Below, in pieces: positions 33,413 through 37,207 of a DNA stretch of 37,207 bases. Numbering within the stretch: the stretch's first letter is position 1; every line of letters begins with the position of its first letter. The notes beneath the pieces were generated by a model. The model was given only the letters and a program-made list of their open reading frames with translations, was not told the DNA's origin and made no database searches. This stretch comes from an alpha proteobacterium MED-G09 (GTDB lineage: Bacteria; Pseudomonadota; Alphaproteobacteria; MED-G09). Both the position numbers and the translations under genes were made by a program. The stretch spans positions 1 through 37,207 of the forward strand of contig CAJIZT010000011.1 in assembly GCA_905182015.1 (NCBI GenBank), in the 5' to 3' direction.

Positions 33413-34876
33413 ATGAAGATACGTGAAGGCATTACTTTTGATGACGTTTTACTTGAGCCTGCAAAATCTTCTGTATTGCCAGCTGAGGCAAAACTTCAAA
33501 CTAAAATCACAAAAAATATTACTCTTTCAATCCCTTTAATTTCTGCTGCAATGGATACTGTCACGGAATCTAGGATGGCAATTGCCATGGCGCAAGCTGG
33601 TGGGCTGGGAGTTATACACAGAAACCTTGATTTTAATACCCAGGCTAATGAGGTTAAAAAAGTTAAAAAATTTGAATCGGGAATGGTTGTGGATCCAGTA
33701 ACCATCAGCCCTAACCAACCATTGAAAGATGCCTTGGCTCTTATGAGGGAATATAATATTTCAGGTATTCCTGTAACAGATCCAAAAACTAAAAAATTAG
33801 AAGGTATCATAACAAATCGAGACGTAAGATTTGCTTCAAACCAAGATCAAAAAGTGCATGAACTAATGACAAAAGACAATCTTATTACCGTCAATGAGGG
33901 AGTAACACAGGCTAAAGCTAAAGCAGAACTTCATAAGTATAGAATCGAAAAACTTATAGTCGTTGATAATAAATACAGATGTATAGGATTAATCACTGTT
34001 AAGGATATGGAGAAATCGCAACTTCATCCAACAGCATGCAAGGATTCTCAAGGAAGGCTGAGGGTAGCAGCAGCTACTTCTGTTGGTGACAAGGGGTTTG
34101 AAAGAGCTGAAGCACTTATTGATGCTGGCGCCGACCTTTTGGTGGTTGATACAGCTCATGGGCATTCCTCCCAAGTATCTGAGATTGTCAAAAGAATTAA
34201 AAAATTATCAAAATCAACACAGGTTGTTGCCGGTAATGTTGCAACAAAAGAGGCAACAAGATCTTTAATAGACGCTGGCGCTGATTGTGTGAAAGTTGGA
34301 ATTGGTCCCGGCTCTATCTGCACAACTCGAATTATAGCGGGCGTTGGTGTTCCTCAGTTAACAGCTATTATTGATTGCGCTACCGAGGCTCGAAAGTCAA
34401 ATATTCCAATCATTGCCGATGGAGGAATTAAATTTTCAGGTGACTTTGCAAAAGCATTAGCGGCCGGTGCAGATGTCGCAATGATAGGATCTTTGTTTGC
34501 GGGTACGGGCGAGGCTCCGGGAGAAATTTTTCTTCATAAAGGAAGGCGCTTTAAATCCTATAGAGGCATGGGGTCTGTTACTGCTATGGCCCAAGGCTCT
34601 GCGGATAGATATTTTCAATCTGATACAGGAAATACTGAAAAACTTGTCCCCGAAGGTGTGGAGGGTCAAGTACCCTACACTGGTTCAGTTCAGGATATTG
34701 TTCATCAAATGATCGGTGGTTTAAGAGCATCCATGGGTTACACTGGTAGTAAAAATTTAAAAGTCTTTCAGACGAAAACAAAGTTTATTAGAATTTCGTC
34801 TGCATCGTTGACGGAAAGTCACACTCATGATGTTTTGATTACTCGTGAAGCTCCTAACTACCCTGTTAGAGGTTAG
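33413..34876 (+). CDS. guaB: Inosine-5'-monophosphate dehydrogenase
   Basis: 487 residues, the usual bacterial length. IMPDH oxidises IMP to XMP with NAD+, the committed step to GMP. The catalytic Cys303 is in GPGSICTTR. Two CBS domains (about 90-205) are inserted in the TIM barrel ([27 protein letters not shown]). [18 protein letters not shown] is the flap region. AAAGGAG lies before the ATG. It starts the guaB-TPR-guaA run, 82 bases after rlmE. Confidence 0.97.
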
Positions 34877-34879
34877 TTT

Positions 34880-35356
34880 TTGAAAAAAAATAGTAAATAT
34901 TTCTTATTATCCCTATCCCTTTTATTACTTACTGGGGCTCTTTCGTTAAATAAATTATCTAATGATTTATCCAGTGAAGCTCTCGCTTTACTCTCAGAAA
35001 ATAATAATGAGGCTCTTTTATTATCCCGTCAGAGTGTGACTTCCGATCCATCAAATTCCTATGCATGGGCTGTTGCTGGAAAAGTTTTACTAGAGATCGA
35101 TAGAGGCAATGAAGCGCTAAATTATTTTAAAAAATCTTTATCTTTAAACCCTCTTCTAAAAGAGAGCCTTTATTGGGGAGCTCAAGCTGATATTTTATTA
35201 GATGATGTTTCTAGCGCTGAAGAAAAGTTAAATATTTTAATTAAATCTTGCTTAGGCTGCGATGAATCAAAAGCATTAAAAGATTTGTTAAAGTCGTATA
35301 AGAAAAAACAATTAAAAAATAATGTAATTAAGGTAGAGAAAGAACCAAATGGTTAA
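34880..35356 (+). CDS. Small TPR protein between guaB and guaA
   Basis: 158 residues from a TTG at 34880, preceded by AGAGG. An N-terminal hydrophobic segment (6-21, [16 protein letters not shown]) is either an uncleaved anchor or a signal peptide; no lipobox cysteine was seen. A pair of TPR-like helices follows ([26 protein letters not shown], then [14 protein letters not shown]), so most of it is probably periplasmic. A CLGC pair near 124-127 could form a disulfide. The tail is lysine-rich. It sits 3 bases after guaB, and its stop overlaps the guaA start by 8 bases, so it is translated with the GMP genes. I do not know its role. In alphaproteobacteria I would expect rsmB at this spot. Confidence 0.82.
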
Positions 35357-36911
35357 TAGCGCAAAGAACGATAGAATTCTTATTTTAGATTTTGGAAGTC
35401 AGGTAACCCAATTAATTGCTCGAAGAGTAAGGGAGAGCGGTGTTTATTGTGAAATTTATCCTTATATGAAATGGAGGGAGGGAATAGATATTATCCAGCC
35501 CCTTGGTATTATTTTATCTGGAGGACCTGCATCCGTTATTGAAGATGCATCTCCTCAGGTTGCAAAAGAAGTGTTAGATTATGGTGTGCCAATTTTAGCT
35601 ATCTGCTATGGACAGCAAACTCTTTGTTCTCAGCTAGGAGGCAAAGTTGAAAGCTCCAATAAAAGAGAATTTGGTAGAGCCAATATTGAGATAACAGAGG
35701 ATTCAAAATTCTTTGATGGATTTGATAGAACTAATTTAAGTGAACCGGTATGGATGAGTCATGGTGACAAGGTTAGCGAAATGCCAAAAGGCTTTAAGGT
35801 AATAGCTAAGAGTGAAAATGCACCTTTTGCAGCGATTGCAAATGAGGAGATGTCGATGTACGGGGTTCAGTTTCATCCAGAGGTTGTCCATACGCCAAAC
35901 GGCTCAAAAATGTTAAAGAATTTTACGCACTTAATATGTGGCTGTACAGGTGATTGGACAATAGAATCATTTAAAAATGTTGCTATTGAGAGAATTCAAA
36001 AACAAGTTGGCGATGGAAGAGTGGTTTGTGGTCTTTCAGGGGGTGTAGACTCATCTGTCGCTGCAGTTTTGCTTCATCAGGCTATTGGCGACCAATTGAC
36101 CTGTATATATGTTGATACAGGGCTTATGAGGGAAAACGAAACTCAAGAAGTCCTCAGCATGTTTAATGGGCATTTTAATATTCCCTTAGTTCACGTAGAC
36201 GCAGGACAAGCCTTTTTAAGTGATCTTGATGGAGTTAGTGATCCAGAAAGAAAAAGAAAAATCATCGGATCAAAATTCATAGATATTTTTGATGAGGAAG
36301 CTTCTAAAATTGGAGGAGCTGATTTTTTGGCTCAAGGAACTTTATATCCAGATGTGATTGAAAGTGTTTCTTTTATCGGAGGGCCATCTGTAACAATTAA
36401 AAGCCATCACAATGTTGGAGGTCTTCCAGAAAGAATGAAAATGGAATTAGTCGAACCCCTAAGGGAGCTTTTTAAGGATGAGGTTCGTAACCTTGGAAGG
36501 GAACTTGGACTTCCTGATAAATTTATTGACCGTCACCCATTTCCAGGGCCAGGCTTGGCGATAAGAATACCTGGTGAAATTACAATAGATAAAGTTGAGA
36601 TATTAAGGAAAGCAGATACTATTTATATCGATGAGATAAAAAAATCTGGTCTTTATAACGAGATATGGCAGGCCTTTGCTGTTCTTTTACCTGTTCAAAC
36701 TGTAGGTGTTATGGGTGATCAAAGAACATATGAATATGTTTGTGCTTTAAGAGCTGTAACCTCTCTCGATGGAATGACAGCTGATTATTATCCTTATGAG
36801 CAGAGTTTTTTAGCAAATGTCAGTACTAGGATAATTAATGAAGTAAAAGGTATTAATAGAGTTGTTTATGACATTACGTCAAAGCCTCCAGGTACTATTG
36901 AGTGGGAGTAG
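35349..36911 (+). CDS. guaA: GMP synthase (glutamine-hydrolysing)
   Basis: 520 residues. It converts XMP to GMP with ATP and glutamine. The class I glutaminase half has Cys86 ([10 protein letters not shown]), His176 and Glu178 (GVQFHPEVV). The ATP-pyrophosphatase P-loop SGGVDS is at 230-235. The dimerisation domain at the C-terminus ends in the conserved KPPGTIEWE. The gene is intact, overlapping the TPR gene by 8 bases. Its 3' end is a known insertion site for genomic islands in many bacteria, and the DNA beyond changes character. Confidence 0.97.
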
Positions 36912-36950
36912 CGAAACCCTCTGAAACCCTTATTCTATAAAGGTTCTCGA

Positions 36951-37034
36951 ACAACACACTCACGACACACTTTCTCCTAGATGCTTGTTCTTTATGGCAT
37001 CTGGCATTAGCGTAAACACACACCACAACACACT
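36951..37034. repeat. 10-base direct repeat pair ACAACACACT
   Basis: Exact copies of ACAACACACT are at 36951-36960 and 37025-37034, 74 bases apart. Each is followed by ACG, after one extra C in the first copy. CACAC-rich variants lie between. They could be integrase arm sites. Confidence 0.6.
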
Positions 37035-37060
37035 ACGGTGACTATTGTTAACCGTAAGTG

Positions 37061-37104
37061 ACTAAACACCCTAATTGATCCATTGGGTGTTGGGGATGTT
37101 TAGT
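37061..37104. repeat. Nested inverted repeat
   Basis: ACTAAACACCC (37061-37071) pairs with two right arms: GGGTGTT (37085-37091) and TGTTTAGT (37097-37104). This gives a hairpin with a bulge of about 5 bases. It lies just before a possible ribosome site (GAGGAAGG, about 37108-37115). Confidence 0.6.
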
Positions 37105-37127
37105 TATGAGGAAGGTATAATGGGTAC

Positions 37128-37207
37128 ATGTATAAAGATAGCGCAACGCAAAAAACTAACAATATTTTTCCGATTTTTAGCTCAGTGAAGATTGGTGCCA
37201 GAAAGCT
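37128..37207 (+). CDS. Possible N-terminus of an integrase-like ORF (cut by window edge)
   Basis: An ATG at 37128 opens a frame of 26 codons that is still open at the window end (MYKDSATQKTNNIFPIFSSV, then KIGARK). GAGGAAGG lies about 12 bases ahead, a little far. A competing ATG at 37120 closes after 22 codons. The KIGARK stretch faintly recalls the start of tyrosine recombinases (LTDxKIRxAK), but this is too short to trust. Confidence 0.25.
   Translation, partial: MYKDSATQKTNNIFPIFSSVKIGARK

Follow-up and report, generated by a model that had tools for sequence, protein, structure and literature searches.

A probable attachment-site junction of a mobile cassette at the 3' end of guaA in a marine alphaproteobacterium, and tandem guaA cassettes in its relatives

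The window analyzed here is a whole contig of 37,207 bp (G000:C11:1-37207) from a 1.35 Mb genome, which is assembled in 12 contigs, is 97.9% complete, and has its relatives in the PS1/OCS116 group of marine Alphaproteobacteria. The right end of the window carries three genes on the plus strand. These include a guaB-like IMP dehydrogenase gene (33413–34876), a gene for a small TPR-like protein (34880–35356), and an intact guaA gene (35349–36911), which encodes a GMP synthase of 520 aa with 76–93% amino acid identity to its counterparts in the family relatives. Coding ends at the guaA stop codon (36909–36911) and the contig itself ends 296 bp further on, so that an island following guaA would be unreadable here. 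A first-pass annotation of the sequence had described the gene-dense pattern as stopping at this codon and the tail behind it as non-coding, less AT-rich, and repeat-rich. The stop of dense coding was confirmed, as the 296-bp tail contains no ORF of at least 80 aa. Six-frame translation of the tail yielded broken frames throughout, except for one at 37128–37207 that runs off the contig, and up to this unfinished ORF the tail is indeed non-coding. The shift in base composition is real in direction (40.2% GC in the tail vs. 36.1% in the window) but unremarkable in size, as it corresponds to the 87th percentile of 296-bp stretches.

The frame at 37128–37207 (plus strand, beginning with MYKDSATQKTNNIFPIFSSVKIGARK) is the first open frame of the tail and opens 216 bp after the guaA stop. 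It possibly represents the start of a first cargo gene that is cut by the contig end, and it is not the start of an integrase. A Pfam search with the truncated ORF of 26 aa gave no match. By eye, its N-terminus is reminiscent of an Old Yellow Enzyme (FSS.KIG), and the genome's own paralogue of this enzyme starts with MNLDKLFSSYKIGSVSL; with neither a Pfam hit nor a useful tblastn match, this identity is unproven and was not adopted. On its minus strand, the tail gave an Rfam match to EGFOA-assoc-1, which reached 16.9 bits against a gathering threshold of 224.5 and was gone in a larger search; no literature on it was found, and it was dismissed as noise. A DNA similarity search of the tail against phages returned the guaA end only.

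The 3' end of guaA probably constitutes an attB site and, in the present arrangement, the left half of attL. The putative att core ACTATTGAGTGGGAGTAG (36894–36911, plus strand) recurs at cassette borders in relatives and includes, at 36900–36907 and with guaA left intact, the motif GAGTGGGA, which is the core in guaA of GIsul2, an island with a guaA-specific tyrosine integrase (PMC9376610). The core is adjoined by an imperfect inverted repeat, CTGAAACCCTTATTCTATAAAGGTT (36921–36945, plus strand), which resembles the core-adjacent element of the relatives' cassettes, weakly matches model positions 44–73 (9.7 bits), and has CTCTGAAACCCTTAT in common with G012. This conserved inverted repeat could in part be a transcription terminator. 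Behind it, four arm-type repeats are found on the plus strand, namely ACAACACACT at 36951–36960, ACGACACACT at 36962–36971, the degenerate AAACACACAC at 37014–37023, and again ACAACACACT at 37025–37034. With the first base of the stop codon of guaA as reference, they form two pairs of 11-bp spacing at +42/+53 and +105/+116. Arm sites at such distances typically belong to integrases that have an arm-binding domain at the N-terminus. In three integrase-bearing guaA islands (G168, L103, and L066), repeat pairs ~11 bp apart are located in the gap that separates guaA from the integrase gene, at about +42–45/+53–56 and +102–105/+114–117, and a fourth one, L109, presents the same two-pair layout in a less regular and more degenerate form. 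The repeat sequence differs (ACAACACACT in the window vs. TTACACAAA in G168, L103, and L066), whereby layout and spacing alone agree. The claimed repeat-richness of the tail is marginal by count (three ACAACACACT-like copies; 5 of 200 shuffles), but it is significant at the arm geometry of the guaA islands, where the score of the window was reached by only 2 of 2000 dinucleotide shuffles. This geometry test was uneven on the reference islands themselves (G168, 3/300; L103, 26/300; L066, 10/300; L109, 0/300 shuffles). A P'-junction profile, built from the P'-type junctions of relatives with the window left out, gave 17.0 bits for the window, a score as high as that of none of 500 shuffles, although part of it stems from the constant core.

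The gene order guaB–TPR–guaA is kept in all 15 relatives of the family whose locus is readable (tblastn), including the homologue of the small TPR-like gene at the same place, and the DNA downstream of guaA differs in most of them. Exceptions are the first cassette, which is common to G002 and G009 and likewise to G004 and G015, and the first non-coding stretch, which is common to G003, G007, and G011. In nine relatives, the guaA end (CTATTGAGTGGGAATAA and variants) is found again, on the same strand, 0.3–4.3 kb downstream, and most of these copies are preceded by a module of ~100 bp, in which two direct repeats at a distance of ~11 bp and an inverted repeat are followed by ~10 bp leading to the core. 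Tandem cassettes, most of them with one to three genes, occupy the stretches between the cores. Four genomes of genus g2 are 92–97% identical to the right of about the last core and differ in the arrays that precede it. A model of the module (R1) matched 15 of the 18 family genomes, several of them only by the core at guaA itself, and a second model (R2) matched eight genomes in six further families among the 385 genomes of the class that were searched. The earlier suggestion that the guaA 3' end is an integration hotspot is therefore supported for this clade by the conserved upstream synteny, the variable downstream DNA, and the downstream copies of the guaA end. Repeated insertions with variable content at one site, as in additive flexible islands, are seen in the relatives, and the window shows the left junction only. 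A conserved right flank at guaA was considered for genus g1, where DUF457 and its neighbours recur, yet it was discarded as DUF457 sits directly behind a core in places (contig C5 of G006); in G035 it adjoins guaA, and it is absent from the genome of the window. Besides its match at guaA, the window's genome contains one further near-match to the guaA-end core (C2:4813), located in a second terminal module on contig C2 (L192:4732-4830) with the degenerate core TATTGAGTGGTAATAA (R1, 24.5 bits, E 3.5e-5). This module follows a P450 gene and a small membrane-protein gene and has no visible link to guaA. As the left end of C2 looks like a tRNA gene plus rlmB, linkage to the contig end at guaA is implausible, and C2:4732-4830 was rejected as a candidate for the distal end of the insert at guaA.

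It could be that the tail is nothing but an ordinary intergenic spacer, in which a guaA terminator and a leader precede conserved neighbours and the repeats have arisen by chance. The shortness of the visible sequence (296 bp), the marginal repeat count, and the unremarkable GC content would agree with such a spacer. The arm geometry and the P' profile score argue against it, as do the relatives, which share no downstream gene order near guaA, and the lack of the frequent downstream gene DUF457 in the window's genome, and we therefore hold an ordinary spacer to be quite improbable. Thus, the junction at guaA is very probably real. With the arm-site layout of guaA integrase islands in the tail, the data are in favour of the first-pass view that an accessory region begins here and runs off the window.

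The same annotation had also predicted a tyrosine integrase within about 1.5 kb of guaA, and in this respect the findings point elsewhere. No integrase is encoded in the 296 visible bp after guaA, and none starts ~160 bp past the stop codon of the window. The inserts of the relatives are tandem cassettes, and their readable arrays contain no integrase, an absence that is not absolute as several arrays are cut by contig ends. A Phage_integrase search of the 18 family genomes detected, with the exception of G003, no more than two recombinases in any genome, and none in two genomes. One of the two scores best as XerD and lies beside accA and aroK, whereas the other scores best as XerC and lies beside a transaldolase-like gene and lpdA. 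G003 has an additional enzyme of 714 aa, which is encoded on a contig without a module match. The 97.9%-complete genome of the window likewise possesses no phage-type integrase, but only the XerD- and XerC-like recombinases, both of which remained below the NCBIfam cut-offs. The integron integrase model TIGR02249 reached 109 and 92 bits in this genome against a cut-off of 265. The XerC-like recombinase of the window's genome (L003:709-2037, contig C8) has 443 aa and is ~140 aa longer than the XerC model of 295 positions. With XerC and XerD as the sole tyrosine recombinases of this and almost all family genomes, and with an inverted repeat in the module, it might be asked if these housekeeping enzymes insert the cassettes as in IMEX, by way of a dif-like site. 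The core that is duplicated corresponds to the end of guaA rather than to an obvious dif site, and paired arm sites on both sides are not required for exchange by XerCD; this route is the most improbable of those considered.

Integrase-bearing guaA islands with the layout of the window occur elsewhere. In G168, the order is guaB, TPR, guaA, a gap of 163 bp, a gene for a tyrosine integrase of 411 aa, cargo, and, ~7 kb on, the same module and core that end the family cassettes. Relatives of this integrase (35–52% identity) directly follow guaA in L103 (Beijerinckiaceae), L066 (Alsobacter), and L109 (Rhizobium). No relatives of it were found in the phage collection or in IMG/VR, and two distant ones were found in plasmids. 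With respect to site and arm-repeat distances from the guaA stop, these four islands are thus like the window; they differ in that the integrase directly follows guaA, whereas the element of the window has none at this position. It is conceivable that the insert is a single classical autonomous island with its integrase beyond the contig end, since the tail has the arm layout of such islands and they do exist in G168, L103, L066, and L109. Against this stand the reading frames. The integrase frame of G168, L066, and L109 starts about 160–165 bp after guaA, and the corresponding frames of the window are closed, while the first open frame at 216 bp is unlike an integrase start. The genome without a phage-type integrase and the integrase-free readable arrays of the relatives also speak against an autonomous island, which we consider unlikely.

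The cassettes move between genera and families, as can be deduced from sequence comparisons. G001 and G012, which belong to different genera, have an 863-bp cassette with 94.9% identity vs. 75.0% for their guaA DNA, and G005 and G275, which belong to different families, have a 646-bp cassette with 98.3% identity vs. 66.6% for guaA. The cargo comprises a DNA cytosine methyltransferase, a nuclease of the PD-(D/E)XK type, a Fic protein, TPR/2OG-oxygenase proteins, and a treble-clef protein, which has a weak Vsr-like match. The commonest cargo consists of long TPR proteins with internally repeated TPR units (L034, L237, L040, L039, L243, and L117), one of which carries a 2OG-Fe(II) oxygenase domain. 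Instead of site-specific recombination, such exchange might also reflect RecA-dependent homologous recombination that uses the guaA flank and the recurrent module, and the short homology offered by the module and the family genomes without a dedicated integrase would suit this route. The repeated guaA end at cassette borders, the arm sites at fixed distances, and an architecture in common with integrase-bearing islands fit a site-specific mechanism instead. Moreover, the transferred blocks are confined to the cassettes, and the flanking guaA stays divergent. We regard RecA-mediated exchange as unlikely, too.

Taken as a whole, the data make it likely that the tail is the attL of an apparently integrase-less cassette targeted to guaA; such cassettes would be moved by a guaA integrase acting in trans. 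A mobile element would have integrated site-specifically into the 3' end of guaA without disrupting the gene, and the last 296 bp would represent attL with its P' arm. In the family, the guaA site accumulates tandem cassettes without integrase that are bounded by the guaA-end core and arm-type sites, and a guaA-specific tyrosine integrase from an autonomous relative, such as the G168 island, would insert and excise them in trans. This enzyme presumably acts on integrase-less cassettes as well. A helper integrase is unseen in the clade, where the tyrosine recombinases of the family genomes are XerC/XerD-like apart from the one other enzyme of G003. The insert of the window is probably also devoid of an integrase and would end in a second core (CTAYTGAGTGGGARTAA) at its far edge; its left junction alone is visible, as the contig stops before a second core, cargo, or integrase could appear.

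A close known parallel, and a direct precedent for action in trans, is GIsul2, the integrase of which also mobilizes the CR2-sul2 unit, which has no integrase of its own, in recA- E. coli (PMC9376610). Common to both systems are the insertion at GAGTGGGA in the guaA 3' end, an intact target gene, a third internal att site, and an integrase-less unit that is moved by the integrase of the island, the latter being proposed for the present case. Here, in contrast, the units are small cassettes with varied cargo in marine Alphaproteobacteria, and no integrase was seen inside an array. A further parallel is fGI-2 of Ca. Methylopumilus, an additive flexible genomic island in which the last 20 nt of tRNA-Lys are repeated and which has a size of 330 bp to 42 kb (PMC10872708). 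Streamlined aquatic bacteria, recurring ends of the target gene, and variable size and content are features of both; the present system differs in its target, the protein gene guaA, and in having arm modules, transfer of cassettes across families, and relatives that bear an integrase.

Arrays of att-bounded elements without recombination genes that are stacked in tandem at one site are also formed by CIMEs through ICE accretion. The cassettes of the relatives are likewise att-bounded without a recombinase inside, while the element of the window shows its left boundary only. The guaA cassettes are far smaller than typical CIMEs, and we know of no conjugative relative for them. With integrons, they have in common the tandem arrangement of small and mostly co-oriented cassettes, several of which start only a few bases away from the guaA stop, so that expression from guaA would be possible. 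They differ from integrons in that there is no integron integrase and that the borders are guaA-end cores with arm sites instead of attC. They do not correspond to Tycheposons either, which have a tRNA border and a tyrosine recombinase, since the border is guaA and the readable arrays are free of recombinases. A bolder reading, for which we see some room but which we regard as rather doubtful, is that guaA serves as an integron-like platform in marine Alphaproteobacteria, where mostly promoterless cassettes would be expressed behind guaA and circulated among families via a shared helper integrase. If this were true, streamlined genomes would draw on a common pool of R-M, Fic, oxygenase, and TPR genes while retaining no mobility gene.

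guaA islands, additive flexible islands, and att-bounded integrase-less elements are known kinds of elements, whereas arrays of minimal, widely exchanged guaA cassettes in streamlined marine bacteria look like a new variant; a limited literature search found no paper describing them. Streamlined ocean bacteria hold few mobile elements, and how accessory genes arrive in them is an open question. Stacked cassettes that are up to 98% identical between families and have no resident integrase offer a concrete and testable route of acquisition. The core and the arm pairs provide a DNA signature by which cassettes, including those with defence-type genes, can be spotted in metagenomes. In addition, guaA arrays may account for several contigs breaking soon after guaA.

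Several minor observations were made alongside. The G005 bin contains a second, divergent guaA end on contig C68 (L123; 61% identity over 308 aa), which suggests contamination of this MAG. Two IMG/VR contigs from one sample, L174 (203 kb) and L167 (108 kb), share an att module almost identical to the one in G266; in L174, it is preceded by a type II methyltransferase and a restriction enzyme. They were rejected as helper phages, as neither record holds an integrase and L174 may be a chimaeric assembly. In G138, the P' and P arms directly after guaA share one repeat pair, with a second core ~130 bp on (L270:1299-1433), and this is apparently an att unit without cargo. Finally, a 3.5-kb insert after guaA in G018 (L275:4380-7866) carries a DNA-methyltransferase-like gene and ends in a duplicated guaA 3' end of 57 codons; it is a different type of island at the guaA site.
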